From a bacterium (GTDB lineage Bacteria; Patescibacteriota; Saccharimonadia; Saccharimonadales; Saccharimonadaceae): 61,394 nt of DNA. Shown one piece after another: positions 44,054-61,394 of the stretch (its first letter is position 1; each line of letters begins with the position of its first letter). Location: positions 1 to 61,394 of the forward strand of contig DAIDKB010000020.1 in the NCBI GenBank assembly GCA_027451105.1, in the 5' to 3' direction. Under the pieces are notes generated by a model. The model searched no databases, was not told the DNA's origin, and saw only the letters and a program-made list of their open reading frames with translations. Both the position numbers and the translations under genes were made by a program.

Positions 44054-44054
44054 C

Positions 44055-44336: not shown

Positions 44337-44399
44337 GTTGCTTCACGCTCCATCAGAGGGATAGCCGTCAGCCACAAGAACGTAGACTGACATTTATTA

Positions 44400-44429: not shown

Positions 44430-44456
44430 TACAGGGCAAGCCGCTTACATGAAAAA

Positions 44457-44528
44457 GACTCCCTAATTAGTTAGGGAGTCGAGCCGAGGGCGGCAGGCGA
44501 ATCATTTCTGACTCAGCCTGCCGCCCTC
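44457..44528 (-). terminator. double hairpin terminator of mini-gene F
   Basis: A 13-bp GAGGGCGGCAGGC/GCCTGCCGCCCTC stem (44486-44528) is followed by GACTCCCTAA/TTAGGGAGTC (44457-44480) and TTTTT on the minus strand. Confidence 0.9.
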
Positions 44529-44540
44529 CTTCACGGTGGA

Positions 44541-44888: not shown

Positions 44889-44947
44889 TTCTGGTCTCCG
44901 TTTCGATTGTAGGCTTTGATCTCGCACTGATTGTACGAGCTAGCGAC

Positions 44948-44976
44948 ATAATACTATATTTTGTTATTTTTGTCAA
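44948..44976 (-). promoter_or_regulatory. sigma70-type promoter of mini-gene F
   Basis: On the minus strand TTGACA (44976-44971), 17 bases, TATTAT (44953-44948). Confidence 0.8.
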
Positions 44977-45013
44977 TAGCATGAGCGACTTACATAATTT
45001 TCCAAATAAAAAA

Positions 45014-45253
45014 GCGCCAGGTAAGGGTGGGCATCACCTGGCGCCGTTTTACCCTTTAACCCACCCGAGGGGCAAGCGTAACTGTCTCGATCAAAGCGCA
45101 GACGTTCGCTGGTTAAAGGGATTAGTATACACGCAATGCTTATCGCTAATGAAGTGGAGGGTAGTTACTTTAAAAGCACATTGCATGTAACCTAACATAA
45201 GTTAGAATAGGGGGTATAAGGTGCTTTTGGTTAATCTCGCAATGTAACCAATC
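45014..45253 (-). ncRNA. candidate structured non-coding RNA
   Basis: A stretch of about 240 bases transcribed leftwards has a TTGACA-17-TAATAT promoter (45289-45261) and a terminator (GCGCCAGGT/ACCTGGCGC, 45014-45044) followed by TTTTTTATTT on the minus strand, but no convincing reading frame with a ribosome-binding site. Internal pairing includes CCCTTTAACC/GGTTAAAGGG (45052-45061 with 45111-45120) closing an inner imperfect stem, and AAAAGCAC/GTGCTTTT (45172-45179 with 45221-45228). It does not show the tmRNA, RNase P or SRP hallmarks. Confidence 0.6.
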
Positions 45254-45260
45254 GTTCCTG

Positions 45261-45289
45261 ATATTAGCACGTCTTTGACATAATGTCAA
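45261..45289. promoter_or_regulatory. palindromic divergent promoter of the candidate RNA and dprA
   Basis: TTGACATAATGTCAA (45275-45289) is a perfect palindrome that supplies a TTGACA -35 box in both directions. Leftwards, TAATAT follows at 17 bases. Rightwards, a poor GACATA box at 17 bases would place transcription near 45310, the dprA ATG. Confidence 0.7.
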
Positions 45290-45309
45290 TACTTACCGAC
45301 ATAAAATGT

Positions 45310-46167
45310 ATGAAAATCAATAGCACGTCACCCCAGGACTATAAATACTTACAGCTATTAAATTCTATTGCCAAAAAACCGGAAAGATTACATTTTACTG
45401 GCAAGCTGCCGAGTAACCGCTTAACAACCGTTGCGATTGTCGGTTCGCGCAAGCCAACCGCTTACGGTAAAGAGGTGACTTATCGATTAAGCTACGAACT
45501 AGCCAAGCGAGGGATCATCATCGTTAGTGGCCTAGCCCTAGGGGTCGATGGTATTGCGCACCAAGCCGCCCTGGATGCTGGCGGTACAACTATTGCCGTC
45601 GTCGCAAACGGCGTTGATATTATCTATCCAGCGGCACATCGTCAACTGGCCAAATCAATTATCGATAGCGGTGGCGCCGTTATAAGTGAATATCCGCCCG
45701 GCACCGAAGCCCGCGACTTTTACTTTTTAGCCCGCAATCGCATCGTTAGCGGCCTAGCCGACGCCGTCGTCGTTACCGAAGCGGCTGTTCGTAGTGGCAC
45801 CTTATCAACCGTCGCCCACGCGCTTGAGCAGGGCAGGGAAGTCTTTGTCGTACCCGGCAACATAACCAGCCCACTATCGGCCGGCTGCAACGCCTTATTA
45901 AAACAGGGCGCCCAGCCGGTGACCTGTAGCGAAGATATCTTAGAAGTTATCGCTCCCGACCTATTAAAACCGCAACAAAGCCTGCCACTGGGTAATTCTC
46001 CCGCCGAAAGTAAGTTAATCGAACTGATTCAAGCTGGCCTGCGTGATGGTGATCAGATTTTAAGCGCCTCGAAATTATCCGTCAGTGAATTTTCCCAAGC
46101 TTTAACTATGCTAGAAGTTAATGGTTCGGTTCGCGCCCTTGGCGGCAATCAGTGGACGCTGCGCTAG
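45310..46167 (+). CDS. dprA: DNA-processing protein DprA
   Basis: A RecA loader for incoming single-stranded DNA in natural transformation, 285 residues. The Rossmann-type core is intact: VAIVGSRKPTAYGKEV, VSGLALGVDGIAHQAALD, VVANGVDIIYP, ISEYPPGTEA, and RNRIVSGLADAVVV. A winged-helix-like C-terminus follows (SKLSVSEFSQALTMLEV). The frame opens at 45283, but that ATG lies in the promoter palindrome; the Met at 45310 fits the expected transcript start. Natural competence is common in CPR. Confidence 0.92.
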   Translation: MKINSTSPQDYKYLQLLNSIAKKPERLHFTGKLPSNRLTTVAIVGSRKPTAYGKEVTYRLSYELAKRGIIIVSGLALGVDGIAHQAALDAGGTTIAVVANGVDIIYPAAHRQLAKSIIDSGGAVISEYPPGTEARDFYFLARNRIVSGLADAVVVTEAAVRSGTLSTVAHALEQGREVFVVPGNITSPLSAGCNALLKQGAQPVTCSEDILEVIAPDLLKPQQSLPLGNSPAESKLIELIQAGLRDGDQILSASKLSVSEFSQALTMLEVNGSVRALGGNQWTLR

Positions 46168-46252
46168 CTGGAAGAACCGGGCATTTTACAAATAACAATA
46201 ACTTGCGTACAATAGCCCATTGTGTTTAGCTGAACTAAACCACAACCATTTT

Positions 46253-48592
46253 ATGAAGAATTTAGTAATCGTCGAGTCACCAGCCAAAGCTAAAACTATC
46301 GAGAAGTACCTTGGTAGTGATTTTAAAGTGTTGTCCAGCGTCGGCCACATTCGTTCGATTGCCAAAAAAACCAAAGACGGCACGCCGCCAATTGATGTAA
46401 AAAATGGTTTTAAAACAACTTACGAAATTGATTCCGAGAAGAAAAAGACCGTATCAGACCTAAAAAAGGCCGTTAAAGAGGCCGAAACTGTCTGGCTAGC
46501 AACCGATGAAGACCGCGAAGGGGAGGCAATTGCCTGGCATCTTTGCGAGGTTCTAAAACTTGACCCAGCTAAGACTAAACGAATTGTTTTTCACGAAATC
46601 ACCAAAGAAGCAATCACCGAGGCAGTCAAAAACCCGCGCACGGTTGACATGAACCTGGTTCAAGCTCAACAAGCCCGTCAAATTCTTGATCGGATTGTTG
46701 GTTTTGAACTTTCGCCAGTTGTCTGGCAAAAAGTTCCCGGCGGTAAATCTGCCGGCCGCGTCCAGTCGCCAGCCGTGCGTTTGCTAGTCGAAAAAGAGCG
46801 TGAAATCGAGCAGTTTGAAGGCTCGGCTGAATTTAGAGTTACAGCGGAATTTACAGTCGATGGCGACATCATGAAAGCCGAACTTCCAAAGCGCTTTAAG
46901 ACCGAAGACGAAGCTAAGGCCTTTTTGGAATCATTAATTAACGCCAGCTTTAAAGTCAGCAAGATTACCACCAGCCCAAGTACGCGTAATCCGGGTGCAC
47001 CATTTACGACCAGCACCTTGCAGCAAGAAGCCAACAGCCGGCTCGGCTTTGGTGCCCGCGCTACTATGTCATCGGCTCAAAAGTTGTACCAAGAAGGTAA
47101 GATTACATATATGCGTACCGACTCGGTCAATCTAAGCGGCCAAGCTTTGTCGCAAATGACTCAATATATTAAGACTGAGTTTGGCGAGAATTATCACCAA
47201 ATCAGGACCTTCAAGACCAAGTCCAGTAGCGCCCAAGAGGCCCACGAAGCCATCCGCCCAACTAATATTGCCTTAGAGCGCGGCAGCAGTAACGAATACG
47301 ACCAAAAACTTTACGATCTGATTCGCCGTCGCGCCCTGGCTAGCCAAATGGCGCCAGCTAAACTGGAAAAAACAGTGGTGACAATTGAAATCTCGACCAA
47401 CAAGGAAGTCTTTGAAGCCAAGGGCGAAGTCATTATCTTTGACGGTTTCTTAAAAGTTTACGGTGGCAGCAAAAAAGATGCCGAAATCTTGCCAGCCGTT
47501 AAATCCGACGATATTTTGCCGCTCGCCCAAGCTAGCGCCCGTCAAGTTTTCGCTCGTCCACCAGCTCGTTACAGCGAGGGTAGCTTGGTTAAAAAGCTCG
47601 AGGACCTCGGTATCGGCCGTCCTTCGACTTATGCCACGATTATTAACACCGTTCAGGTCCGTGGTTACGCCGAAAAAGGCGAGACCGAGGGTACGGCGCG
47701 CGATGTTATCGTTTTATCAATTGATGGCGACCAGGTTAGGCGCGAAATCGTTCAAGAAAAAACCGGCTCGGACCGCGGTAAACTGATTCCAACCCCCAGC
47801 GGGGAAGTTGTTAGTGACTTTTTGACTAATAACTTCTCACAAGTGGTCGATTATGATTTTACTGCCCATGTCGAGGAAGAGTTTGACCAAATTGCCGCTA
47901 GTAAGCTAGCTCGCAATGACATGTTGCAGGAGTTTTACAATCCGTTCCATAAACTAATCGAGCAGTCGAGTGATATCAAACGCTCTGATACCGCCAAAGT
48001 TCGCGAACTTGGTATCGACCCCAAGACAAACAAGCCGATTTTTGCCCGTTTTGGCCGCTTTGGACCAATGTTGCAACTGGGCTCAAACGAAAATCCCGAC
48101 GACAAACCGCAATTTGCGCCAATGCCCGCCGGTAAAAAAATTGAGACTGTCACGCTGGATGAAGCCCTACATGCCTTTAAATTACCACGACTTGTCGGCC
48201 AGACACCCGATGGTTTACCGATTAAAGCCAATGTCGGTCGGTTTGGGCCATACGTTCAAGTCGATAAATTATTCGTCAGTATTAAACCGCTTGACCCACA
48301 CACTGTTACCCTTGAAGAAGCGCTCGAACTTTATAATGCCAAATTAAAGGCTGACGCCGAGAAAAATATCGCCGACTTTGGCGATGGTATTAAGGTATTA
48401 AAGGGTCGCTTTGGACCATACGTTACCGATGGCGCCAAGAACGCCAAAATACCCAAAGACACCGACCCGACTTCGATAACTCACGAACAGGCCAAGGAAA
48501 TGATTGCCAAGGCACCAGCCGGCAAACGCCGACCCATCAGGGTTCGAACAGCCTCAAAGACTGCCACCAAGCGACGTTCGACTAAAAAATAG
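46253..48592 (+). CDS. topA: DNA topoisomerase I (type IA)
   Basis: A 779-residue enzyme that relaxes negative supercoils through a 5'-phosphotyrosine intermediate. TOPRIM motifs: LVIVESPAKAKTIEKYLG and TDEDREGEAIAWH. The catalytic Tyr is in ITYMRTDSVNL, and GIGRPSTYATIINT follows. In place of zinc ribbons the C-terminus has three short 'Topo C' repeats (KPIFARFGRFGPMLQLG, GLPIKANVGRFGPYVQV, GIKVLKGRFGPYVTDG) and a basic tail. A TTG at 46220, six bases after a TACAAT box, is a possible alternative start adding 11 residues. Confidence 0.96.
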   Translation: MKNLVIVESPAKAKTIEKYLGSDFKVLSSVGHIRSIAKKTKDGTPPIDVKNGFKTTYEIDSEKKKTVSDLKKAVKEAETVWLATDEDREGEAIAWHLCEVLKLDPAKTKRIVFHEITKEAITEAVKNPRTVDMNLVQAQQARQILDRIVGFELSPVVWQKVPGGKSAGRVQSPAVRLLVEKEREIEQFEGSAEFRVTAEFTVDGDIMKAELPKRFKTEDEAKAFLESLINASFKVSKITTSPSTRNPGAPFTTSTLQQEANSRLGFGARATMSSAQKLYQEGKITYMRTDSVNLSGQALSQMTQYIKTEFGENYHQIRTFKTKSSSAQEAHEAIRPTNIALERGSSNEYDQKLYDLIRRRALASQMAPAKLEKTVVTIEISTNKEVFEAKGEVIIFDGFLKVYGGSKKDAEILPAVKSDDILPLAQASARQVFARPPARYSEGSLVKKLEDLGIGRPSTYATIINTVQVRGYAEKGETEGTARDVIVLSIDGDQVRREIVQEKTGSDRGKLIPTPSGEVVSDFLTNNFSQVVDYDFTAHVEEEFDQIAASKLARNDMLQEFYNPFHKLIEQSSDIKRSDTAKVRELGIDPKTNKPIFARFGRFGPMLQLGSNENPDDKPQFAPMPAGKKIETVTLDEALHAFKLPRLVGQTPDGLPIKANVGRFGPYVQVDKLFVSIKPLDPHTVTLEEALELYNAKLKADAEKNIADFGDGIKVLKGRFGPYVTDGAKNAKIPKDTDPTSITHEQAKEMIAKAPAGKRRPIRVRTASKTATKRRSTKK

Positions 48593-48712
48593 CAAGGCCG
48601 GATTTAGCATGTTTTCCACATCATACAACAAGGTCAATATATAAAAAGTCCCACAACACTGTTTACAAGACATGTCTATTTCATGCTATAATGAGCTTAA
48701 GTAGCCATGGTG

Positions 48713-48741
48713 TTGACATTATATATAATATCTTATATAAT
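48713..48741 (+). promoter_or_regulatory. consensus promoter of the sigma4-HARE gene
   Basis: TTGACA (48713-48718), 17 bases, TATAAT (48736-48741), a perfect match. A second TATAAT-type box lies at 48687-48692. The leader of about 60 bases carries AGAGGAAAAGG before the ATG. Confidence 0.85.
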
Positions 48742-48805
48742 CACATCTAGATACATATAAAAATCTTAAATCCAAGGTGTGGCTGAGAGGAAAAGGCTGA
48801 GATAA

Positions 48806-49855
48806 ATGAGTGAAAAGAACGACACAGAATCATCAATTGATTTAAAGGCCGGTATTACCGAGATTCTATCGATTATTGACCAGGAGCGTGAGCGTGAGAT
48901 TATCACTCGTCGTTTTGGTCTTTATGATCGTCGTGAGACACTCGAGCAGATCGGTGAGCTGCTTGGCATTACCCGTGAGCGCGTTCGACAACTTGAAAAG
49001 GCGATTATTATTCGCCTAAAAATCGCCGCCGACGAAAACAAAATTTCCTCAGTCGCAAGCTTTGAAAAAATGTTCATTCGTAACCTAACAGAGCTGGGCC
49101 GGATTGCCCGCGTTCAAGATTTGACCGATCACTTAATGGGTCGAACCACCGATCAACGTGAGCGCGCCCACGTTGCCTTTATCGCCGAACTAGCACCAAA
49201 CCTAACCGTTATTGACGAAAATGATAGCTATTTCCATTCAATCGGTATCGCTGAATATGGTGATGAGAAAAAGATTAAAGGGGAAGTTGACGAAATCGTC
49301 AAGGTCATTAAAAAGCACGGTGAACCAATGACCGTCGAACAGATTCATGACCAACTTTCTTACGAGCATCCTTCGCACATTCGCGCCCTAGCTAGTGTCA
49401 GCAAGTTACTGGCTCATCTTAAGGACAACTGGGGTCTAGTCAAATGGCCAACCGTTAACCCAAAAAACATTCGCGACAAAATCTACGTCATTCTAGCCGA
49501 GAAGGGCAAGCCAATGCACTTTTCCGAGATTGCTAAGTCGATCAAGGGTAGCAGCTTTAAGCGTAAAGACGTCACCACCCAGGCAATCCACAACGAACTA
49601 ATCAAAGATAAGCGCTTCGTCCTAATCGGTCGTGGCATCTACGCCCTCGACAGCTGGGGTTTCAGCAAGGGTACCGTATCTGACATTATCGTCGATGTTT
49701 TACGTAAGTCAGACACACCGTTGCACCGTGACGAAATCGTTAAGCGTGTTCTAAAGAGCCGCCAGGTTAAAGAGACAACAATCTTGCTTAACCTGCAAAG
49801 CAAGCCGCAGTTTAAGCGCGTTGCTAAAGCAACTTACTCGCTTGCTGAAAAATAA
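48806..49855 (+). CDS. sigma70 region 4 fused to HARE-HTH domains
   Basis: A 349-residue regulator. Residues 15-75 form a sigma70 region 4 helix-turn-helix (REREIITRRFGLYDRRETLE, then QIGELLGITRERVRQLEKAI), yet no region 2 is present, so it cannot melt promoters itself. Two or three winged HARE-HTH-like repeats follow (EIVKVIKKHGEPMTVEQIHD; ILAEKGKPMHFSEIAKSIKG, then GRGIYALDSWG), as in RNA polymerase delta (RpoE of Firmicutes). I infer an RNA polymerase-associated regulator. Its strong consensus promoter suggests high expression. Confidence 0.82.
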   Translation: MSEKNDTESSIDLKAGITEILSIIDQEREREIITRRFGLYDRRETLEQIGELLGITRERVRQLEKAIIIRLKIAADENKISSVASFEKMFIRNLTELGRIARVQDLTDHLMGRTTDQRERAHVAFIAELAPNLTVIDENDSYFHSIGIAEYGDEKKIKGEVDEIVKVIKKHGEPMTVEQIHDQLSYEHPSHIRALASVSKLLAHLKDNWGLVKWPTVNPKNIRDKIYVILAEKGKPMHFSEIAKSIKGSSFKRKDVTTQAIHNELIKDKRFVLIGRGIYALDSWGFSKGTVSDIIVDVLRKSDTPLHRDEIVKRVLKSRQVKETTILLNLQSKPQFKRVAKATYSLAEK

Positions 49856-49905
49856 TTCGCGACGTTGCCAACAGACGCGAGAGGTGAGACAATACAGGAG
49901 TAAAT

Positions 49906-52665
49906 ATGGGTATTATCTCGACAATGATTAACTTCCTGTTACAGTGGTATATTCTATTTCCATTGGTTTTAGCGCTGGGTTATCTGACCTGGCGTAATTA
50001 TCGCAAGATTGACACCATTCGTGCCACACCCGAGAGTGACCTACTGATCCTCGAAATCCCAAAGGCTAACGATAAGAGTGAGCTAGCCGCCGAACAGCTT
50101 TTTGCCAGTTTGCATGGTATTTTTCGCGATAAAGAAGAATTAAAGCTGAACGGGGGCGTCCAAGAACACTTAAGTTTCGAAATCGCCTCTGTTAATGGCC
50201 AGATTCGCTTTTATGCCTGGGTGCCGCGAACTTTACGCAGTTTTGTCGAAGGCCAAATCTATTCGCAATATCCAACCGTCCAAATTCACGAAGCCGACGA
50301 AGATTATGTCGCCCATGAAGGTCAGCACAGCGTCGTTTATAGCTCCGAAATCACCCTTACTGACAATGAGATGCTACCAATCAAGACCTTTCAAAGTTTT
50401 GAGGTTGACCCGCTAGCTGGCATTACTGGAACTTTGGCTAAACTTGAATCTACCGGTGAAGAGGTCTGGATCCAAATCTTAGCCCGTCCAATTGCCGATG
50501 ACTGGCATGAACGATCCGACAGCTGGGTGAGCGGTGTTAAAAAGGGCAAGTCGGCCTCGTTAATTAGCGGCAATGTTTTTACTTGGCTAACCAGTTTAAT
50601 CGAAGCCCTGTGGCGACCGCCCGAAGAAGGGAAGTCGGCCTCTGCTAGTGCGCCCGAGCTATCCGATCGCGATAAAACCCGTATTGCCGAAGCCGAAAAG
50701 AAGGCGACTAAACTTGGCTACGAGGTCAAGATTCGCCTAGCATACCTTGGCGACAGTACCACTAATGCCCGTCTGCGAATGCAGGCGATTGTTGGTACCT
50801 TCAAACAATTTAACAGCACCAACCTTAACGGTTTTAAAATGTCAGCCGCCAGCTTCGATAAAGAGGATTTGGTGCGTTATCGTAATCGTTCATTCAACGA
50901 CAGCGGCTATATCTTGAATATAGAAGAGTTAGCCAGTGTCTTTCACTTGCCGCACACTAATGTCGAGACGCCAAATATCGTCTGGGCTAGCAGCAAGACC
51001 GCTGAGCCACCAGCCAGACTACCGATTATCACTGGCAATAGTGCAATCGATGAAAATATCAGCGCCTTTGGTTTAACTAACTTCCGCGGTATCAATCATC
51101 AATTTGGTATGCTGCGTTCCGATAGGTCGCGCCACGTTTATATTATTGGCCAAACTGGCGCCGGTAAGTCTGGAACGCTTGAGCTATTTGCGCTGAGCGA
51201 CATTTTTCATGGTCACGGCTATGCCATTATCGACCCACATGGCGACTTTGCAGTCAACAATATGCGCTTTATTCCAGGTTCGCGCCTGCAAGATGTCGTC
51301 TACTTTAACCCGGCCGACACAGCTTATCCGCTAGGTTTTAACCCATTAGAGGTCACCAATCCTAATCAAAAGACTAATATTAGCTCCGAGGTAATCGGCG
51401 TGCTTAAGCGTATGTTCGGTGAGTCTTGGGGCCCACGTTTGGAATATATCTTACGCTACACAATCCTGGCGCTGCTTGATCGTCCAACCACCACCATGCT
51501 TGATATTACCCGCATGCTAACCGACAAAAAGTTCCGCCAAGAAACGCTAACATACTGCCAGGACACAGTCGTCCTGAACTTCTGGAAAGTTGAGTTTGCC
51601 AGCTGGAATGATAAGTTCGTCTCGGAAGCGATTGCGCCAGTACTAAACAAAGTCGGTGCCTTTACGGCTAACCCAATTATCCGTAATATCATCGGCCAAC
51701 CCAAGAGTACCTTTAATATTCGTCAAATCATGGACGAGGGCAAGATTTTAATCGTCAACCTATCGAAGGGTCTAATTGGCGAGGATAACGCCGCCATCCT
51801 GGGCGCCTTTATGGTTACCAAGATCCAGCTGGCTTCAATGAGCCGAAGTGATATTGAACGCATCGAGGATCGCCGTCCGTTCTATCTGTATGTTGACGAG
51901 TTCCAAAACTTTGCCACTGATTCGTTTGCAACAATTCTATCCGAAGCCCGCAAGTATGGCCTTAACCTGACCGTTGCCAATCAATATATTAGCCAGATGA
52001 CCGATACCGTGCGCGATGCTGTCTTTGGAAACGTCGGTACGATGATATCTTTCCGTGTTTCAGCTGATGACGCACCAATCCTGGCCAAGCAGTTTGAGCC
52101 GCAATTCGAGCCAGTTGACCTGTTGCAGATGCACAATCGTCACTTCATCATCAACATGGTAATCGGCGGCGAAAAAGCCCCAGCCTTTAGCGCCACCACC
52201 TTAACCCTACCAACTCCACAGACCGATAACACTGGTCGAATTATCGAAAATACCAGGCGTAATTACAGCCGTAGCCGCGCCGATGTCGAGCAAGAGATTA
52301 GTCTTGCCATTCAGCCCCCAGAACACCTTCAGAAGGCTCCACAATCGCAGGCACAGGCCAAACAATGGCCCGTCCAACCAGGGGCGCAAGCCGTTAGCGC
52401 GGCTCAGCCAACCACAGTTGATACATCCAGCCCACAAGCTACTGCCGAGCAGGGGACAGAGGCGCCTAAAAAGCGTAAGCGTACTCGCTCTCGTAAAAAA
52501 AAGACCGCTGATGAGGATGGTCAAACTCAGCCAACCAATACACAGCCCGGCTCTAGTCCTGTGGTTGACAATCAGCCAGCCCCAGCCGCTATGACAGCGC
52601 CTAGCGCCCCTCAGCAGCCAGCTCCTACCGACTCAGCCGAAGACGGCGTCTTACAGATTCATTAG
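49906..52665 (+). CDS. VirB4/VirD4-like membrane-associated ATPase
   Basis: A 919-residue protein with one or two N-terminal hydrophobic segments, a domain of about 350 residues common in CPR, then an ATPase of the type IV secretion/HerA group: Walker A IGQTGAGKSG near 413-422, IIDPHGDF, and Walker B LYVDEFQNFATDSF near 661, followed by ANQYISQM. The last 160 residues are Pro/Gln/Ala-rich with a basic stretch (KKRKRTRSRKKK). It could drive DNA or protein transfer or pilus assembly, but no other T4SS gene is present nearby. It follows the sigma4-HARE gene by 50 bases. Confidence 0.85.
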   Translation: MGIISTMINFLLQWYILFPLVLALGYLTWRNYRKIDTIRATPESDLLILEIPKANDKSELAAEQLFASLHGIFRDKEELKLNGGVQEHLSFEIASVNGQIRFYAWVPRTLRSFVEGQIYSQYPTVQIHEADEDYVAHEGQHSVVYSSEITLTDNEMLPIKTFQSFEVDPLAGITGTLAKLESTGEEVWIQILARPIADDWHERSDSWVSGVKKGKSASLISGNVFTWLTSLIEALWRPPEEGKSASASAPELSDRDKTRIAEAEKKATKLGYEVKIRLAYLGDSTTNARLRMQAIVGTFKQFNSTNLNGFKMSAASFDKEDLVRYRNRSFNDSGYILNIEELASVFHLPHTNVETPNIVWASSKTAEPPARLPIITGNSAIDENISAFGLTNFRGINHQFGMLRSDRSRHVYIIGQTGAGKSGTLELFALSDIFHGHGYAIIDPHGDFAVNNMRFIPGSRLQDVVYFNPADTAYPLGFNPLEVTNPNQKTNISSEVIGVLKRMFGESWGPRLEYILRYTILALLDRPTTTMLDITRMLTDKKFRQETLTYCQDTVVLNFWKVEFASWNDKFVSEAIAPVLNKVGAFTANPIIRNIIGQPKSTFNIRQIMDEGKILIVNLSKGLIGEDNAAILGAFMVTKIQLASMSRSDIERIEDRRPFYLYVDEFQNFATDSFATILSEARKYGLNLTVANQYISQMTDTVRDAVFGNVGTMISFRVSADDAPILAKQFEPQFEPVDLLQMHNRHFIINMVIGGEKAPAFSATTLTLPTPQTDNTGRIIENTRRNYSRSRADVEQEISLAIQPPEHLQKAPQSQAQAKQWPVQPGAQAVSAAQPTTVDTSSPQATAEQGTEAPKKRKRTRSRKKKTADEDGQTQPTNTQPGSSPVVDNQPAPAAMTAPSAPQQPAPTDSAEDGVLQIH

Positions 52666-52720
52666 GGTAGAGTGTACTAGCCCGCTTTAATTTAGGGCAT
52701 CATTACCGGCCGAAATAAAA

Positions 52721-52740
52721 TAGAACATAATTAGAACATG
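52721..52740 (+). repeat. 20-bp direct repeat, left copy
   Basis: TAGAACATAATTAGAACATG, itself two TAGAACA units 11 bases apart. It matches the copy at 53331-53350 at 18 of 20 positions. Confidence 0.75.
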
Positions 52741-52856
52741 CACGATATGGCGCCGCAGGGCCTAAAGTTGCCTGTGAGCGCAAATTAATAATTATCCAAT
52801 AATTATACGGCTGGTTCAAATAAAGGCCGCAGGCCGCGTATAAAAGGCCGAGTAGC

Positions 52857-53057
52857 ATGAAGCGTAGTAGACATATAATAAAATCCAGCGCAAAAATAAA
52901 TCAGTCGGACGAGTTAGGTGATTTATCAGCAATATTTATGTATATAGATTATGCGTCGCACAATGTATATTTTACGACATTAGATATTATTAATAAAGAC
53001 GACTTATCATCCATCCTCATTAAGGTCAAAATACGGATAGATAGCCCTACGATGTAG
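52857..53057 (+). CDS. doubtful small ORF in the convergent gap
   Basis: A 66-codon ORF with Ser/Ile/Lys/Asp-rich product and no recognisable domain. A TATAAA box lies 12 bases before the ATG and AAAGG about ten bases before it, so it might be expressed. However, the candidate dif site lies inside it and codon use is simply AT-rich, so it may be a chance frame. Confidence 0.22.
   Translation: MKRSRHIIKSSAKINQSDELGDLSAIFMYIDYASHNVYFTTLDIINKDDLSSILIKVKIRIDSPTM
52953..52980 (+). other. candidate dif (XerC/XerD) chromosome dimer resolution site
   Basis: Two 11-bp arms (52953-52963 and 52970-52980) flank the six-base spacer TGTATA. The spacer is identical to that of E. coli dif, and 19 of 28 positions match overall; the arms share GTCG/CGAC inverted symmetry. 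It lies where plus-strand genes (to 52665) and minus-strand genes (from 53387) converge, as expected at a replication terminus. Confidence 0.5.
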
Positions 53058-53330
53058 TAACACGTCTGCCGTATGAATATTCACACTGTTATTAAGTAGT
53101 TTATATTTTCAAAATTATTTATCAAATGTCACACGACTGCCAGCATGCCTGGATCGACAACACCAAGAGCGTTTTTTACTACGTATGGTTATCCACATAC
53201 CATGCGCGGTATTTGCATTTTCTAAAAATTATTTCACTACTCCTCTACTCGCTCTTATAAATTAATTTGCTTTTTTGATAATTTGGTGTTTATATATAGT
53301 TTTTCTTCTCCACCACAATATATCAATATA

Positions 53331-53350
53331 TAGAACAGAAATAGAACATG
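53331..53350 (+). repeat. 20-bp direct repeat, right copy
   Basis: TAGAACAGAAATAGAACATG, with the same 11-base internal period as 52721-52740. The 590 bases between the copies are AT-rich and hold no well-supported gene. Confidence 0.75.
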
Positions 53351-53386
53351 ATAGTGTAGCGGGGTGGACTCACCTACAAATAAGAC

Positions 53387-54328
53387 CTATTTATAAAATG
53401 CCTTACCACTCACACGGACATCAACATAACCGGGTTTTAAACCATGGCTAGATAAATAGCCCAGTGCCCTGCTCATATCCTCTATCTGCTCCCCCACTGG
53501 GCGATCAATTGATAATTTTACAAGTGGCGTTACACTGTTAATGCGAATCTCAAGCTGACGGGTAGTGTCTTGCGGAATGATTGCTTGCGTCACAACAAAG
53601 CCGCTAGCCTTAGCCAGGGCCACTACACGTCCCACAAAGCCCAAAAAGCGATTACTCGCTATAGCCGAACCCTGCTGAACGCTGACGCCACTTTGGTCAA
53701 TAATCTCGACATCTGGGTTAGTGTAGTAATTGCGCTCAAAAGCGATACCGTGCGAGTCGACATAATACTGCTTATCACTAATTGTCCAGCCAGCAACGGG
53801 GCGACGCATGATCAGGGCATAGTCAGTGTCACCAACACCACCCAAACTGACGCTCGAAACGCTTTCAACCTCAGGAAGCTTTTGAGTTAAATAGTCGGTT
53901 AACTTTTGAACATTCAAAGCAAACCGAAACCTCTCTAGTGGATTTGCGCCCAAATAATCATTTATAGCCTGCTCGTATAGCGCCGAATCAACTGAGTGCG
54001 AAACTGTGCTATCACCCGAGATGGCCGTAACTTTAGCCGTAAACTGAAACAAAAGAAACGACAAAATCACTGTAATAGCCACAACAGTAAGTAGGGTAGC
54101 CCCTATTTTACGGCGCTGAATCGCTAAATGATGGGCTTGAGTGCGCGGCGATTCCAGGTCACTGCGATGTTTAGCGGTATTGATGCTGTTAGAAGTACTA
54201 CCCGTCAAAGTACGGTTGCGCTGAAAAGTGTATTGATCTTGCCTTGGTACGGCCGACTCGCGCACAGGAATATCGCCCTGACGCCGACGAGCTGGAATAT
54301 CAGTAGTTTTTTTGTTGAATAAGCGCAT
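53387..54328 (-). CDS. ftsQ: cell division protein FtsQ/DivIB
   Basis: A bitopic division protein of 313 residues. About 80 basic cytoplasmic residues (RRQGDIPVRESAVPRQDQY) precede one transmembrane helix (LLTVVAITVILSFLLFQF), then a POTRA-like domain (DYLGANPLERFRFALNVQKL, ESVSSVSLGGVG) and an FtsQ beta domain (DSHGIAFERNYYTNPDVEI). It bridges FtsB/FtsL and the septal synthase. It is the last gene of the dcw cluster, 15 bases after murG. Confidence 0.85.
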   Translation of the reverse strand: MRLFNKKTTDIPARRRQGDIPVRESAVPRQDQYTFQRNRTLTGSTSNSINTAKHRSDLESPRTQAHHLAIQRRKIGATLLTVVAITVILSFLLFQFTAKVTAISGDSTVSHSVDSALYEQAINDYLGANPLERFRFALNVQKLTDYLTQKLPEVESVSSVSLGGVGDTDYALIMRRPVAGWTISDKQYYVDSHGIAFERNYYTNPDVEIIDQSGVSVQQGSAIASNRFLGFVGRVVALAKASGFVVTQAIIPQDTTRQLEIRINSVTPLVKLSIDRPVGEQIEDMSRALGYLSSHGLKPGYVDVRVSGKAFYK

Positions 54329-54343
54329 ATTGGTTACGATTAA

Positions 54344-55501
54344 TTATAGCTTATTGCCAGCCGAAATAATCATATCAGCCATATCGTTGGCCGCATTAGG
54401 CCTGGCGAACTTTGAAAAGCGTCTCGCCATCGCTTTTGCATCGTTCGGACTAGACAAAACTTCCTTAACCGCCTCTACTAGAAGAGTGGTATCATCAACC
54501 ATCTCGTCCTCATTAAGTATTTTAACCGCTCCTGCATCAGCATAAACGGCCGCATTCTTTAACTGATGACCACCGGTTAGCTTGGCATTTGGTATTAAAA
54601 TAGTTGGCTTTTCGAGGGCAGCCAATTCTAAAATCGTCGTTGCCCCAGCCCGCGCCAGGACGACATCGGCAGCCCCCAATAGCTCGGCCATACCACTCGA
54701 AACAAAGGCGTGTAGCTGGAAATGCTCATTATTAACAGGTGTTAGCGAGCGCAATTCGTCATATTGTGCCGCTCCAGCAATCAGCACAACCGTGCCAAGT
54801 TTTAATAGGTCATCAAGTGCCTCGGCAACCGTATCATTAATACGCTTAGCGCCAAGTCCCCCACCGGTAATAGCAATTAGCTTAGAGTCGGCGCTAATCC
54901 CCCACTGCCGGCGAGCCTGGACGCGTTCGGAATCAGTAAACGGATGAAAATCACTCGAAATTGGAATACCAATATAGCGCGAAATTGCCTTGGGATATGA
55001 ATAATATTCCAGAGGCGCGCCAGTAGCGATAGCACTCGCCCACTTTGCCAGAATTCGGTTAGTTAACCCCGGATGGGCATCAGAATCATGTATCACCAAA
55101 GGAATATGCAAAATTCGAGCCGCCAAACCAACCGGCAAGCAAACGTAGCCGCCCTTGGTAAAAACAACATCCGGCCGCCACAAAATCAACATGCCTAGAC
55201 TTTGAATTAAGCCTATCAGTACCAAAAAACTATCACGCAAATTCAATAAAACCAATTGTGTCCACATTAGCTGCTGCATAACGCTTAAGTGGTGATAGCG
55301 CCTAAATTTACCCGCAATAATAGTTTTTACTGGCAAATTAGGGTCAAAACTAATTAAAAGTGCCTTGGCCTGGTGGGAAAACTTTTTATCACACCAAAAT
55401 CTAATTTCGGCTTGCGGCTGTTTACGCCTAATGTCTTTCAAAACGGCTACGACTGGCGTGACGTGACCGCCCGACCCCCCGCCGACTGCTAGAATCTTCA
55501 T
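54344..55501 (-). CDS. murG: MurG, lipid II-forming N-acetylglucosaminyltransferase
   Basis: The membrane-associated GT28 enzyme that adds GlcNAc to lipid I, 385 residues. The N-terminal AVGGGSGGHVTPVVAV, then the second glycine-rich loop ITGGGLGAKRINDTV and the donor-site region LGAADVVLARAGATTILELA with ALEKPTILIPNA are typical. AAGGAGG precedes the ATG. Its start lies inside the ftsW 3' end (74-base overlap), implying coupled translation. Confidence 0.94.
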   Translation of the reverse strand: MKILAVGGGSGGHVTPVVAVLKDIRRKQPQAEIRFWCDKKFSHQAKALLISFDPNLPVKTIIAGKFRRYHHLSVMQQLMWTQLVLLNLRDSFLVLIGLIQSLGMLILWRPDVVFTKGGYVCLPVGLAARILHIPLVIHDSDAHPGLTNRILAKWASAIATGAPLEYYSYPKAISRYIGIPISSDFHPFTDSERVQARRQWGISADSKLIAITGGGLGAKRINDTVAEALDDLLKLGTVVLIAGAAQYDELRSLTPVNNEHFQLHAFVSSGMAELLGAADVVLARAGATTILELAALEKPTILIPNAKLTGGHQLKNAAVYADAGAVKILNEDEMVDDTTLLVEAVKEVLSSPNDAKAMARRFSKFARPNAANDMADMIISAGNKL

Positions 55502-56738
55502 ATTGCGCCTCCTTTAACCTTGATGAATGGACTGTATAGCGAGATAGCTGAAAAACCAAGCCAAGCGCCGCTGCGATAAAGATCATACTGGTACCGCCAA
55601 AGCTTAGAAGTGGCAGCGTAATACCAGTAAGTGGGAAGATCCCAATCATCGAAGCTATATTAAGGATAACATGGGATCCGAACCAACCAAAAGTACCGGC
55701 TACAATCAGTTTTAGGCGCATATCGCCCAGATGATCCATCACGATAAGCATTCGATACATCAAGGCTGTCAGCAGCGCCAATATTGCCATTAGGCCGACA
55801 AAACCAAAGATTTCACCCATAATTGCAAAAACCGAGTCGTTAATCGCTTCCGGTAAGTAGCCCGTCGCCTGGACGCTATTGCCAATACCAACACCAGTTA
55901 AACCACCGGTGCCTATAGCCATTTTAGCGTGATCAATCTGATAGCTGTTTGTGTTACTCGACGTCGTGCTGTCACCCTGCAGAAACGTGACAATACGATC
56001 AATACGATGTGACGCCGAGGCAATCAAAATCACACCGGCCACAGCTATGCCTATAAGAATTATTAAGCCATTTTTTTTATTAATTCCCGATACAAACAAC
56101 ATCGATCCGATAATGCTAATCAGGGCAACGCCAGTCCCCAGGTCTTTTTGAATCACAATGATAAATAGCATCGATATAGCCAGCACAACTCCGACTGGTA
56201 TTAGCGTCTCGTGGACATCATTCGCCTTTCCTTGTTGAGTTTTAATACCCAAGAAAACCGCAATAAAGACCAAAACACCAAACTTCAAGACCTCAGCTGG
56301 CTGAAAACTTCCAAGTGGCCCCAGGTTGAACCAACGAACAGCTCCAAGACTAGCCTGAGCGATACCCAAATGCGCCCAACCGGCTAGCGCTAAGAATGCA
56401 CACGCGGCCAGCCCTGCAATCAACAACTTACCGCCGTTTTTCGTAAATACCGAATACGGCACAACAGCAGCAACGCCAAACGCCGCCAGGGCCATCAGCA
56501 AGCTGACCGCCTGTTTTACAAAGAAATATGTATCGCTGTAATTACTCCCGTAGGCATTATTCAAGACGTTGGCGCGTTGTGGGCCAATCGAATATATAAT
56601 AATCAAGCCAATCAGCATCAAAAGCCCCATATAAAGAGCAATGCGGTAGTCTGGTCGATGCCGTCGGTTAACGTCTTCACGGGCATTAGAGCGCGTCATA
56701 CCGCCGACAAGCTGCATCAGACGCCCACCGATAGTCAT
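55428..56738 (-). CDS. ftsW: FtsW/RodA-type peptidoglycan glycosyltransferase (SEDS)
   Basis: A ten-helix SEDS polymerase of 436 residues that polymerises lipid II at the septum with its PBP partner encoded upstream. Typical features are WFNLGPLGSFQPAEVLKFGV, then QKDLGTGVALI and the C-terminal GITLPLLSFGGTSMI. The frame is open to 56792, but the ATG at 56738, one base after the mraY stop, is the likely start. The final 25 residues (SSRRGVGRSRHASRS) are basic and lie in the murG overlap. Confidence 0.93.
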   Translation of the reverse strand: MTIGGRLMQLVGGMTRSNAREDVNRRHRPDYRIALYMGLLMLIGLIIIYSIGPQRANVLNNAYGSNYSDTYFFVKQAVSLLMALAAFGVAAVVPYSVFTKNGGKLLIAGLAACAFLALAGWAHLGIAQASLGAVRWFNLGPLGSFQPAEVLKFGVLVFIAVFLGIKTQQGKANDVHETLIPVGVVLAISMLFIIVIQKDLGTGVALISIIGSMLFVSGINKKNGLIILIGIAVAGVILIASASHRIDRIVTFLQGDSTTSSNTNSYQIDHAKMAIGTGGLTGVGIGNSVQATGYLPEAINDSVFAIMGEIFGFVGLMAILALLTALMYRMLIVMDHLGDMRLKLIVAGTFGWFGSHVILNIASMIGIFPLTGITLPLLSFGGTSMIFIAAALGLVFQLSRYTVHSSRLKEAQYEDSSSRRGVGRSRHASRSRFERH

Positions 56739-56739
56739 A

Positions 56740-57771
56740 CTAGATGCTTCCCCCGGCGATGGCGGCAAGTACGCCCAAAAAGGCCATGACATAGGCTATC
56801 ACCCAAAAACGCATCGTCACCTTTGTTTCCGGCCAGCCAATCGCTTCAAGGTGATGATGAATTGGCGCCGATAAGAATATCTTGTGCTTGAAAACTCTTT
56901 TACTAAAGATTTGAATCAAGCTTGAACCAGCCTCAATAACAAAGACAAAGCCGATAATCGGTAGCAAAAACAAGGTGTTGGTTAACATTGCAACAACCCC
57001 GAGTGAGGTACCAAGCGCAAAACTACCAACATCACCCATAAAGAAGCGTGCTGGAAAAATATTGAACCATAAATAGCTCAGTAAGGCGCCAACGACCGTA
57101 AAGCAAAAGCCGGCTAGCATAAATTGGCCTTGTAAAATCGCAATAATACCAAAAGCTCCATAGGCTATCGATACCAAGCCTCCAGCCAGGCCATCCAGGC
57201 CGTCGCTGATATTAACAGCATTGCCAGTAGCAACGACCGCGAAGGCAAACAAAGGTACAATCAACCATCCAGCCGTCCAGTTACCTAAAAACGGAATGTG
57301 AACAATATCAAAGCCTAGCTTGGTGTAGAAAAACCAGCCTAACACCAAGCCAATAGCGGCAATCGTCAAAAACTTTAAACCAGAGCGCATACCAGCCACA
57401 CCCTTACCTTGACCGTGAATATTGATAATATCGTCAATCAGGCCTACCGCTGCCCCGCCTAGCAGAGCGGCAATCGGTAGCCAAGTCTGGCCACGATTAA
57501 GGTTAAACACTGTCACTATAGAAATCGAAGCCACAAACACCAATCCGGCCATCGTTGGAATGTTGCGCTTAAACTTATTGGCATGAAGTTTTGTAAAAAC
57601 CGATAATGCCTCCCCTGTCGTACTGGTGGTTCGTTGTTTTTTCCAAAATTTATAGCGGTAAGCCAGGAACGTATAAACGGGAGTTAGCAGCATTGCCAGC
57701 AGAAATGCCGCCACGCTCAGTACAAATGGTCCTGTTAGCTCTTTAGTTAAATCCGTCAGTGTTATTTCCAT
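56740..57771 (-). CDS. mraY: MraY, phospho-MurNAc-pentapeptide translocase
   Basis: The polytopic enzyme that makes lipid I from UDP-MurNAc-pentapeptide and undecaprenyl phosphate, 343 residues with about ten helices. Diagnostic motifs: GLIDDIINIHGQGKG, then NAVNISDGLDGLAGGLVSIA, FMGDVGSFALG and APIHHHLEAIGWPETKV. AAAGGAGT lies before the ATG. It follows the PBP gene by three bases. Confidence 0.95.
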   Translation of the reverse strand: MEITLTDLTKELTGPFVLSVAAFLLAMLLTPVYTFLAYRYKFWKKQRTTSTTGEALSVFTKLHANKFKRNIPTMAGLVFVASISIVTVFNLNRGQTWLPIAALLGGAAVGLIDDIINIHGQGKGVAGMRSGLKFLTIAAIGLVLGWFFYTKLGFDIVHIPFLGNWTAGWLIVPLFAFAVVATGNAVNISDGLDGLAGGLVSIAYGAFGIIAILQGQFMLAGFCFTVVGALLSYLWFNIFPARFFMGDVGSFALGTSLGVVAMLTNTLFLLPIIGFVFVIEAGSSLIQIFSKRVFKHKIFLSAPIHHHLEAIGWPETKVTMRFWVIAYVMAFLGVLAAIAGGSI

Positions 57772-57774
57772 GTT

Positions 57775-59514
57775 TTACTCCTTTGGCTGCACCCTTAAAT
57801 ATCCGAGCATCCAGTTTGAAATATCTGTAAAGATAGGCTGGGCGTCACGTCCACCCTCTAGACTCATGCCTTTGCCAGATACTTGTATCATTATGACATA
57901 TCGTGGCGTGTCATTACCACCATAGCCCAGATATGTACCAACTGTTTGATTGTTATTATAGTTACCGTCAATTAGCGTCTGCGAGGTACCAGTCTTGCCA
58001 CCGATCTCATAGCCCGGCTTATCACCGCCACCAAATAGCGTATCGCGAGTAATATGCGTCATTATCCGTACTTGATCGGCCGTCGTTTTACTAACACTCA
58101 TATGGGTCGGTAAAGCCGCCGCTGGTTTATAATTACCGTTGTCATCAATCGTTCCTGCGATTACTGTTGGCTGATGATATTGGCCACCGTCAACAATTGA
58201 GCTAAAGGCCGCCGCTACCTGCAACATCGTAACGTCTAATCCCTGGCCAAATGACATATTTGAATAACGCACCGCGTTTCCCTGAGGGTCGCTTGGCGGA
58301 ATAATCGTTCCCGGTTGCTCGCCAGTAACTTCAACACCAGTTAGCTGCCCCAACTTAAATTTATTATAGAAATAATCATACAAAGTATTACGAGCCTGTA
58401 AGGTAATATTTGAGCCGTCACCTAGTCGCTCAGCAACTGTAATGAAGCCCGAGTTGAGCGAGTGATCCATGGCTGTTTGAAGTGTGATATTGCCAAAATG
58501 GTCCAGGCCAACACCGTTTAGGACCCTAATGCCGTCAACATCCATATAACCGACGTTATTATAGGTCGAAGCTGGCGTCACAACCCCCTTATCGATGCCA
58601 ACAGCCATCGTTAAAGTCTTCATGTCAGAGCCTGGTTCATATGGGGCTGATACAATTGGATTGTTAAAGACCGAGACATCAGTCACGCTGTTGAGGTCAC
58701 TTGGGTCATACGAAGGCAAGTTAGCCATAGCCATAATTTTGCCAGTCTGCGGGTCCATGACAATCGCACTAGCATTAGTCGCCTTAGTGCGCTTCAAGCC
58801 ATCGGCTAGCGCTTGCTCAACATGAGACTGCACGTTGCGATCGATTGATAACACGATGTTTTCACCGTTAATGGCCGGCTTCTTAATATTGTTATTGCCA
58901 ATTGTTAGCGGCACGTCACTAACATCAGTGACCGATTGCAGCATACCGTCCGTTCCAGTCAGTCGATCGTTTAGCTCACCTTCGACACCGTATTGGCCAA
59001 CACCGTTATAATCCAAAAATCCTAAAACCTGAGCTGCCAGTCCGCCTTCAGGATAAACACGCTGACTGTTCTCTTGAAAACCTACCCCTTTAAGACCAAC
59101 GGCTTTAATCATATCAGCTTGGGTTTGACTAACCTTGGTGGCGAGTACCTGATAGCGGCTAGCCTTATTGCTCAGCAAGCTCTCCAGGTTTGGCCGCGCA
59201 TTGCCACCAGCAATCTGTCGAATCGTATCGACGACTTTAGCATCGTCAGTCGTGACCGATGGGTCTGCAAAGACCGTATAGACAGTGGCATTCATCACCA
59301 AATGAACCGGCGTGTTGCCGTCAAGCGCATAAATCAGGCCACGTTTAGCCGGTATATCCAGCCTTTTAATCTGTTCTTTGTCAGCCAGTCCAACATAATA
59401 ATCATGCTGAATAATTTGCAAAAAAAAGAGTCGCACGACAAATACCGCCATAATGATAAACATCAGACGGGAAAGAATTCTCGATCGGCTGCCTTTTTGC
59501 AATTCAGATTTCAT
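57775..59514 (-). CDS. ftsI: FtsI-type penicillin-binding protein (class B PBP)
   Basis: A septal transpeptidase of 579 residues. One N-terminal transmembrane helix (LMFIIMAVFVVRLFFLQII) and a dimerisation domain precede the catalytic domain: SxxK is SDMK (YEPGSDMKTLT), SxN is SLN (DHSLNSGFI) and KTG is in GGKTGTSQT. The SDMK form is a variant of the usual STxK/STMK. It cross-links peptidoglycan together with FtsW of the same operon. It follows the FtsL-like gene by seven bases. Confidence 0.94.
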   Translation of the reverse strand: MKSELQKGSRSRILSRLMFIIMAVFVVRLFFLQIIQHDYYVGLADKEQIKRLDIPAKRGLIYALDGNTPVHLVMNATVYTVFADPSVTTDDAKVVDTIRQIAGGNARPNLESLLSNKASRYQVLATKVSQTQADMIKAVGLKGVGFQENSQRVYPEGGLAAQVLGFLDYNGVGQYGVEGELNDRLTGTDGMLQSVTDVSDVPLTIGNNNIKKPAINGENIVLSIDRNVQSHVEQALADGLKRTKATNASAIVMDPQTGKIMAMANLPSYDPSDLNSVTDVSVFNNPIVSAPYEPGSDMKTLTMAVGIDKGVVTPASTYNNVGYMDVDGIRVLNGVGLDHFGNITLQTAMDHSLNSGFITVAERLGDGSNITLQARNTLYDYFYNKFKLGQLTGVEVTGEQPGTIIPPSDPQGNAVRYSNMSFGQGLDVTMLQVAAAFSSIVDGGQYHQPTVIAGTIDDNGNYKPAAALPTHMSVSKTTADQVRIMTHITRDTLFGGGDKPGYEIGGKTGTSQTLIDGNYNNNQTVGTYLGYGGNDTPRYVIMIQVSGKGMSLEGGRDAQPIFTDISNWMLGYLRVQPKE

Positions 59515-59521
59515 GATTTAT

Positions 59522-59869
59522 TTAATGGACATAGTCGGTACTAGCCGGGGTAGTCATCGTACTAGCAACGCTACTGCTCTTAACAGACTCAAGCGCTGTT
59601 AGACGTGCATTTTCAACCTCAAGATCACTCTTTTTCGTGTTCAAATCAGCAATTTGACTATCAATTTTTTGCGACTGGTAGTCATAGCTGGTGGCTTTGG
59701 TTGCCTGTGTCAGGTAAATCAAACCAAGCACTGTAATCATAAGAGCGACAAGCACTGTATGAGCGACGGGGCCAAGTTTGACAGAAGAAATAAAGGCGAC
59801 GGTATTTTGATTACGCGACCAATTTTGCTGCCTGCGACTACTAAATTGAGTTGTATTTTGGTATGACAT
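59522..59869 (-). CDS. FtsL-like division protein
   Basis: A 115-residue bitopic protein between rsmH and ftsI, the normal place of ftsL. About 40 Gln/Asn/Arg-rich cytoplasmic residues lead to one transmembrane helix (TVLVALMITVLGLIYLTQ) and a coiled coil (KIDSQIADLNTKKSDLEVEN, then ARLTALES). FtsL sequences are poorly conserved, so the name rests on topology and position. I start at the ATG at 59869 (MSYQNTTQF); the frame extends to 59932 across a hairpin. Confidence 0.75.
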   Translation of the reverse strand: MSYQNTTQFSSRRQQNWSRNQNTVAFISSVKLGPVAHTVLVALMITVLGLIYLTQATKATSYDYQSQKIDSQIADLNTKKSDLEVENARLTALESVKSSSVASTMTTPASTDYVH

Positions 59870-59900
59870 TGTGGTGGTTTTTCTTTTTATTTTTATTTGG

Positions 59901-59930
59901 GCCTGATTGCTCAAAGCTGAGCAATCAGGC
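59901..59930 (-). promoter_or_regulatory. 12-bp hairpin between rsmH and ftsL
   Basis: GCCTGATTGCTC/GAGCAATCAGGC, perfect, six-base loop. On the minus strand it follows a 21-codon ORF and is followed by A-rich sequence rather than a U-run, so it looks like an RNA stability or attenuation element and not a full terminator. Confidence 0.65.
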
Positions 59931-59938
59931 AACGGGTA

Positions 59939-60004
59939 CTATTTTACGTTAACTGCAACTACTTGAGTTACGTCGGCGTATTGTACGTTGATGTGAATTG
60001 GCAT
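59939..60004 (-). CDS. 21-residue small protein in the dcw operon
   Basis: A tiny ORF (begins MPIHINVQYA, ends VNVK, stop TAG) lies between rsmH and ftsL on the coding strand. A strong AAGGAAGGGG is 9-11 bases before its ATG, better than that of most genes here. The product would be a single beta-strand-like peptide with no hydrophobic helix. It may be a leader peptide acting with the hairpin at 59901-59930, or a genuine small protein. Confidence 0.45.
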   Translation of the reverse strand: MPIHINVQYADVTQVVAVNVK

Positions 60005-60031
60005 GGTGTTTTGCCCCTTCCTTTTTTGTTT

Positions 60032-60967
60032 TTATTTTTTCACTGCTGCTCGAAACTTGCTGCTTCGGGCGCGCGGATTGTGAACGTCGTAAATGTCTCC
60101 GGCCATAGGCTTCTTGGTCAGTGGCTGCAGCTCAGATTCAAGCCCTAAATCAAACTGATCTTTAAAGAAACGTTTGACTAGCCTGTCTTCTAAACTATGG
60201 AAGCTAATGATGCCGACTCGCCCGCCTGGTTTTAACAGGTCGGGCAAGCGTGGCAACAGGTCTTCGATAAGCCGTAACTCATCGTTGACCGCAATCCGGA
60301 GCGCTTGAAAGGTGCGCGTAGCTGGGTGGGTTTTCTTCCACTTGCCACGATAGGTCTGCTTGATCAAATTCGCGAGTTCTTCTGTTGTACTTAGCGGCCG
60401 AGCGCCAACAATCGCCGTAGCGATTTGCCTGGCAAAACCGATTGGCTCTTCACCGTATCGATTTATGATGCGAGTCAGATCTTCGACCGAGGCGTTGTTA
60501 ACCAGCGTTTGTGCGCTAACGTCTTGGCGTCGATCCATCCGCATATCGAGTGGCCCGCTATTTGTGAAAGAAAACCCTCTTGTGCTCTGATCGAGCTGTG
60601 GTGACGACACCCCCAAATCAACTAATACAATGTTAAATTTCTCACCCGCTTCTATCAACTGTTTGGCAGCGGATACAAAGTCGGTATGAAGCAGCCGCGC
60701 GCCTTTATCAGATAGTGACTTTAAACGCTCGATGGCGTAATCATCACGATCAACTAGGACCGATTGACTGTAGTTTTTAGTTCTAGCTAAAAATTCACCT
60801 GCATGACCACCGTACCCAGCAGTTAGGTCGAGATAGCTCTCCCCTTCCTTTGGATCTAGCAGCTGCAAAGCTGTTTCTAGCAAGACCGGAACATGTAATA
60901 CGGAAGAATTATTCGAATTGTGTTCGTCATTTTCTTCTGATTGTGGTGGATGTTCTTTTATACTCAT
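60032..60967 (-). CDS. rsmH: 16S rRNA (cytosine-1402-N4)-methyltransferase RsmH
   Basis: An S-adenosylmethionine-dependent methyltransferase (formerly MraW), 311 residues. SAM-binding motif YLDLTAGYGGHAGEFLAR, then VLVDLGVSSPQLDQSTRGFS and MRMDRRQDVSAQTLVN, and C-terminal GISFHSLEDRLVK-like GIISFHSLEDRLVKRFFK. The ATG at 60967 has GGAAAGG five bases upstream; the frame opens at 60997. It is the first dcw gene in the window. About 15 extra polar N-terminal residues (EHPPQSEENDEHNSNNSS) are unusual for the family. Confidence 0.95.
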   Translation of the reverse strand: MSIKEHPPQSEENDEHNSNNSSVLHVPVLLETALQLLDPKEGESYLDLTAGYGGHAGEFLARTKNYSQSVLVDRDDYAIERLKSLSDKGARLLHTDFVSAAKQLIEAGEKFNIVLVDLGVSSPQLDQSTRGFSFTNSGPLDMRMDRRQDVSAQTLVNNASVEDLTRIINRYGEEPIGFARQIATAIVGARPLSTTEELANLIKQTYRGKWKKTHPATRTFQALRIAVNDELRLIEDLLPRLPDLLKPGGRVGIISFHSLEDRLVKRFFKDQFDLGLESELQPLTKKPMAGDIYDVHNPRARSSKFRAAVKK

Positions 60968-60997
60968 TTGCCTTTCCAATATAACATGGAAGAGCAA

Positions 60998-61394
60998 TTC
61001 GAGATCACCTAACTGATAGCGAGGCTTTTTTGTTTTTGTGAGTGTGTTTGTTTTTGTAATAAGTGTCCGAACGATTGGTTATTCAAGGGGGTTACGTTGT
61101 AACTCACACCCTGCCAATTATTCGGTTGAGAGACTTATGTGTTAGGATACCCCACAAAAACGAGTTTTTGCGGGGACCCCGTGTGAGGTGGAGTTTTTTG
61201 GGAGGTGTGTTTTTTAAGTAAGGTACGCGGATTTTTTTGAGTGGCCCGGAGCCCACTGCCTCACTATCAGATAGTTGATCTCGAGAGTTTTCTTGCTTTA
61301 GAATCGCGAATTGTTAAAGTACGAAGGAATTTTTGGTTGTACCTATGCGTCAGCTGCCATAATGCGCCAATAGGCACCGGCGCGTACAGCAACT
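60998..61394. other. non-coding region upstream of the dcw cluster
   Basis: No gene is visible in these 397 bases. On the minus strand (towards rsmH) there is a 12-bp hairpin with one G-U pair, CCCCGCAAAAAC/GTTTTTGTGGGG (61175-61150), which would be in a long dcw leader or end an upstream transcript. A TATATT box lies about 13 bases before the rsmH ATG. An mraZ gene is not seen, and the window ends before it could be ruled out upstream. Confidence 0.5.

Follow-up and report, generated by a model that had tools for sequence, protein, structure and literature searches.

The window analysed here (the whole stretch of 61,394 nucleotides) belongs to the 919-kb draft genome, in 46 contigs, of a Saccharibacterium (Patescibacteria). 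Within a 721-bp gap between convergent genes it holds a 28-bp candidate dif site, reading GCGTCGCACAA TGTATA TTTTACGACAT (Table 1). Where relatives of the gene neighbouring the site carry a name, it is Candidatus Saccharibacteria. The flip in gene direction reported here by the first-pass annotation, with a plus-strand ORF ending at 52665 and the next minus-strand ORF at 53387-54328, was borne out, and in close relatives the reversal also holds at the scale of the chromosome. The minus-strand gene, which we refer to as gene X, ends a cell-wall and division (dcw) cluster (mraW-ftsI-mraY-ftsW-murG) and was found in 92 of 100 relatives. Searches of Pfam and NCBIfam gave no match to its product, which is possibly a divergent division protein. 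In the Saccharimonadia the distance between the site and the end of gene X is usually 0.2-0.6 kb, with a VirD4/HerA-like ATPase gene converging on the opposite side. Most VirD4 homologues of the phylum are encoded far away from virB4 and may serve a different function (PMC12102498); a candidate role for the VirD4/TrwB/HerA-like ATPase adjoining the site is dif-linked DNA pumping.

Table 1. Features of the window at and around the candidate dif site.
Feature	Position	Strand	Observation or basis
Candidate dif site, 28 bp	52953..52980	+	Sequence, single copy, class and phylum conservation, sharp edge of core
Left arm of dif	52953..52963	+	
Central region of dif	52964..52969	+	
Right arm of dif	52970..52980	+	
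Conserved 24-bp core, GTCGCACAA-TGTATA-TTTTACGAC	52955..52978	+	Comparison among relatives
VirD4/TrwB/HerA-like ATPase gene, converging on site	49906..52665	+	Recurs beside the site in Saccharimonadia and in several further families of Patescibacteria
Gene X, 313 aa, last gene of dcw cluster	53387..54328	-	Homologue adjoins site throughout the order
Left flank	1..52954		KOPS-like AGGGGA toward site: 19 on +, 1 on -
AGGGGA in left flank	3663, 4264, 5062, 9093, 12084, 16281, 21450, 22788, 22884, 30411, 32981, 35224, 35618, 40663, 41655, 43698, 46519, 49279, 52451	+	
Right flank	52979..61394		AGGGGA on - strand only (57611, 60840); every called gene on -

Further features were seen in the window and beside the site in other genomes. 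Positions 48806-49855 encode a sigma-70 region 4 domain fused with a HARE-HTH domain like that of the RNA polymerase delta subunit. A tRNA-Leu gene (24822-24908, minus strand) overlaps the start of the opposite-strand ORF 24856-26205 (plus strand), the true start of which is probably further in. In many members of the order, CCCC...AGGGGA followed by T-rich DNA recurs 43-44 bp to the right of the site (L089-L118). At this fixed distance it is likely a terminator hairpin, and its AGGGGA, which points away from the site and is hairpin-like, was rejected as a guide motif and not counted.

The 28-mer has the layout of a dif site, with two 11-bp arms flanking a 6-bp central region. The features on which the first-pass annotation had based its call, namely the TGTATA centre, CGCA.AA in the first arm and the GTCG/CGAC ends, were all present at 52953-52980. 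The exact E. coli spacer did not prove to be a telling feature, as most close relatives carry TATATC instead; between conserved arms the 6-nt centre is variable (TGTATA, TATATC, TATACC, TAATAC and others). The consensus of the core across Saccharibacteria and Patescibacteria was GTCGYACAA-N6-TTTTRCGAC, and its half sites, GTCGYACAA and, for the right arm taken in reverse complement, GTCGYAAAA, are identical but for a single position. The right arm in the window, TTTTACGACAT, is not close to TTATGTTAAAT, as an XerD arm would be. Between the fifth positions of the two arms there was no covariation of base-pair type, the combination of C and A being common, and since a change of the fifth base in one arm goes unmatched by the other, the symmetry indicates a DNA dyad and not an RNA stem.

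The 28-mer was unique in its own genome when up to three mismatches were allowed, and the reversed control pattern gave zero matches. Of 100 relatives, 89 carried the core, GTCGCACAATGTATATTTTACGAC, at up to three mismatches; it was almost always in single copy, in a few genomes in two, and the control gave no matches. When the arms were searched with a free centre (at most two mismatches), 145 of the 147 genomes in the class had the site, and none of the 138 high-quality genomes lacked it. The copy-number check and the search of related genomes that had been proposed for the site both came out in its favour. Across the phylum, the core was found in 180 of 287 sampled genomes at up to two mismatches, a minority of these matches being probably due to chance, as judged from the control columns and some of the listed strings. 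Conservation dropped sharply beyond 24 bp in a comparison of 86 distinct sites, in which column conservation is biased in the arms because the arm pattern had selected the sites. Conservation of the site is far beyond chance. Two copies per genome were observed in G038, G061, G032 and G303, several of them at contig ends, and the two copies in G061 differ in their centre; these duplicates may be marks of elements integrated at dif.

The search for xerC and xerD that had been suggested for this genome returned one XerC/D-like protein (L002, 307 aa), and no canonical pair of XerC and XerD was found in it. The alignment of L002 with XerD and with an archaeal XerC-like protein extends through the catalytic R, K, H-x-x-R, H and Y (residues read by eye). 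L002 resembled XerC/D and XerA more closely than XerS or XerH, and it passed the NCBIfam cut-off for XerA. The XerD residues that contact FtsK (RQ-QQ) were not retained in it, by eye against PMC5357621. The second tyrosine recombinase of the genome, L003, scored as a distant integrase type. Relatives of L002 were identified in 278 of the 287 phylum genomes. Among the matches listed, at least 15 genomes from 11 non-Saccharibacteria families had an xer gene 0.5-6 kb from the site (G215, G236, G253, G283, G323, G347, G364, G384, G393, G401, G410, G425, G433, G455 and G463), and in about 25 other genomes among them xer was not near the site or was on a different contig. Proximity of xer and site within 6 kb is expected by chance in about 1% of genomes. 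In Saccharibacteria, xer was not beside the site. FtsK with a gamma domain was present in all 15 relatives scanned; no protein of the 46-contig draft reached the FtsK profile cut-off, which may reflect an assembly gap.

In published surveys, dif and the GC-skew shift lie within ~1.4% of each other (PMC3025954); even where chromosomes are asymmetric, the mean distance between dif and the skew switch is 13 kb (PMC6199493). A location at the skew switch is usual for dif, though not a mechanistic requirement. The first-pass annotation had supposed a location at the replication terminus, and this was not supported: GC skew was negative across the whole window, on both sides of the site and with no switch at it, and in relatives skew switched opposite oriC, ~14-23% of the chromosome from the site. 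In G056, a single contig of 952,504 bp, the skew minimum coincided with dnaA, and the maximum was reached at 0.496 of the chromosome, ~23% short of the site at 0.729. In G010, with contig 2 reversed, the skew maximum was at 0.506 and the site at 0.714 (~21%). Joining the G010 contigs as numbered gave a maximum at 0.78 and was dropped for the reversed contig 2, with its V-shaped profile, an orientation that is inferred and is consistent with three single-contig genomes. The sampled skew of G042 and G050 switched well away from the site (offsets of roughly 14-20% and roughly 18%, respectively).

The sign change of GC skew at 0.496 (G056) and 0.506 (G010) was found on both coding strands alike. 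Measured from dnaA, the site lay at a distance of ~0.24-0.34 of the chromosome in single-contig Saccharibacteria; for nine single-contig genomes belonging to other classes the distance was ~0.24-0.48. These fractions derive from coordinates and lengths, some of which were rounded to 100 kb. Between the maximum and the site, skew in G056 and G010 was at most about half of its strength from the site to the origin, and gene orientation explained part of this weakness. The drop in skew at the site was considered as a termination signal and was not relied on because its changepoints were 16 kb and 61 kb off and part of it follows gene orientation. A skew extreme elsewhere, or a better dif-like site at the switch, had been named in advance as grounds for rejecting the site. 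The former was seen in four relatives; as for the latter, no canonical dif at the skew switch or elsewhere, and no other dif-like site, was found in G056 and G010, both of which were fully read. Based on these two results, skew and dif are uncoupled here, and the site is not false.

The KOPS-like motif AGGGGA points toward the site on both flanks in the window (Table 1). GGGGA and AGGGGA were the best of hundreds to thousands of motifs tried on G056 and G010, and because they had been selected in these same two genomes a hold-out test was needed. The changepoint for AGGGGA was at 696,844 in G056, where the site is at 694,792 (2.1 kb apart), and at 607,330 in G010, where the site is at 607,547 (0.2 kb apart). 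Stratification by coding strand showed the polarity to be independent of that strand: the orientation of GGGGA and AGGGGA reversed at the site in G056 and G010 (z 8.2 and 6.0; 5.2 and 6.5), with no reversal at the skew maximum in either genome. GGTTG and TGTTG, stratified in the same way, had the opposite pattern, reversing at the skew maximum and not at the site, and the free changepoint of the replication-linked GGTTG was near the skew maximum in both genomes.

In the hold-out test, the forward-to-reverse counts of AGGGGA changed across the site from 29:10 to 2:17 in G042 and from 17:6 to 1:22 in G050, and in the window from 19:1 to 0:2. The AGGGGA reversal ranked second among all 6-mers in the sampled G042 and G050. 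Gene orientation in G056 and G010 likewise reversed at the site and not at the skew maximum: the plus-strand coding fraction was 70% from the origin to the skew maximum, 61-63% from there to the site, and 22-23% from the site back to the origin. In the held-out genomes, the reversal in gene orientation was clear in G042 and only partial in G050. Polar guide-like motifs converge on the site, and their reading by FtsK is putative.

Together, a single-copy site of recombinase type, its nearness to xer in many lineages and the convergence of guide motifs are best explained as dif. We estimate a probability of about 0.92 that the 28-mer is the chromosomal dif of this Saccharibacterium, serving Xer resolution, with FtsK steered to it by AGGGGA/GGGGA, and lying apart from the skew terminus. 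The original identification as dif has thereby gained strong support from single-copy conservation over the phylum, xer proximity in other families, and KOPS-like polarity reversing at the site. In the mechanism that we propose, a XerC/D-like recombinase would bind the two near-symmetric half sites, and strand exchange across the 6-bp centre would convert chromosome dimers into monomers. Septal FtsK would be steered to dif by KOPS-like AGGGGA/GGGGA pointing inward from both sides. In the simplest account, forks would meet opposite oriC, at the GC-skew switch, FtsK and Xer would finish at dif, and gene orientation would have stayed with dif.

Compared with the canonical XerCD/dif system of E. 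coli (28 bp), the site shares the 11-bp arms, the 6-bp centre, which is the identical TGTATA in the window, and the single chromosomal copy, and the system shares an FtsK gamma domain (here in relatives) and polar G-rich guide-like motifs toward the site. It differs in having a second XerC-like half site where the E. coli right arm is TTATGTTAA, in a guide motif like AGGGGA/GGGGA where that of E. coli is GGGNAGGG, in the one XerC/D-like recombinase of its own genome, and in its position off the GC-skew switch. With XerS/difSL and XerH/difH it has in common a single recombinase, near-symmetric arms and, in other Patescibacteria families, a site near xer, an arrangement described for both systems (PMC5357621). 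However, the centre of difSL is 11 bp compared to 6 bp here, the protein is closer to XerC/D and XerA, and xer is away from the site in Saccharibacteria. Archaeal XerA/dif also has a single recombinase and a near-symmetric 28-bp site, and the protein here passes the XerA cut-off; the archaeal protein is reported to function in the absence of FtsK (PMC5357621), whereas the relatives here have the FtsK gamma domain and polar motifs. P. aeruginosa PAO1-UW, with unequal arms, likewise has a dif with KOPS polarity far from the point opposite oriC (PMC6199493). In that strain, however, the skew switches at dif; here the switch is opposite oriC, dif being tracked by motif and gene polarity alone, and the separation is family-wide and not that of one strain.

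Several observations count against dif: the position off the GC-skew switch, unlike nearly all published dif (PMC3025954, PMC6199493), the right arm being unlike the usual XerD arm, the absence of RQ-QQ from the recombinase, the draft in which ftsK was not found, and xer not being beside the site in Saccharibacteria. The 28-mer could instead be mainly an attachment site for mobile elements, with dimer resolution secondary or absent. The arm pattern did occur in at least 120 IMG/VR contigs, compared to 31 for the reversed control, and the site is duplicated in a few genomes, in some cases at contig ends. We consider this very unlikely, as an attachment site alone leaves unexplained the single copy across the phylum, the xer proximity and the reversal of KOPS-like and gene polarity, and elements that use dif presuppose an existing dif. 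The viral contigs with the arm pattern (L259-L338 and further ones) are perhaps Patescibacteria phages or plasmids using the host Xer. A parS-like centromere, or another protein-binding palindrome organising the chromosome without recombination, would suit a near-palindrome in single copy at a constant place by the dcw cluster of Saccharibacteria. parS sites, though, are grouped close to oriC, often in several copies, and differ in sequence from this one, and arms around a variable 6-bp centre with xer nearby suit a recombinase site, so that such a centromere is extremely improbable. We give almost no credence to a structured RNA or transcription terminator, despite the convergent genes and short inverted ends: there was no Rfam match at E up to 1, the fifth arm positions lack base-pair covariation, and the core itself has no G+C-rich stem with a T run.

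A different possibility accepts the site as dif and also as the true replication terminus, with the skew switch opposite oriC being misleading. Gene orientation does reverse near the site, the stretch from the site to the skew switch has a weaker skew, and in P. aeruginosa the meeting point of forks is poorly predicted by GC skew (PMC6199493). Nonetheless, a skew sign change at 0.496/0.506 on both coding strands is what would be expected if forks meet opposite oriC, and we regard termination at dif as unlikely, and less likely than forks meeting opposite oriC.

As polarity reverses at the site but GC skew elsewhere, we infer that in the family the end point of FtsK/Xer is separate from the GC-skew terminus. 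The FtsK/Xer end point probably lies, stably, about a fifth of the chromosome from where forks meet in the family, and probably also in the class, which would uncouple the ends of the chromosome cycle throughout the lineage. A literature search, with few subscription papers covered, turned up nothing on dif in Saccharibacteria or Patescibacteria; the core presented here is a candidate dif consensus for a phylum that is large and mostly uncultured, none being described in the literature searched. It has long been argued whether dif is where replication ends and what it is that GC skew records (PMC3025954, PMC3317982, PMC6199493). These genomes provide a natural example of GC skew and FtsK/Xer polarity, normally found together, lying far apart; the ends of replication predicted from dif and from the skew switch differ in them by ~200 kb.
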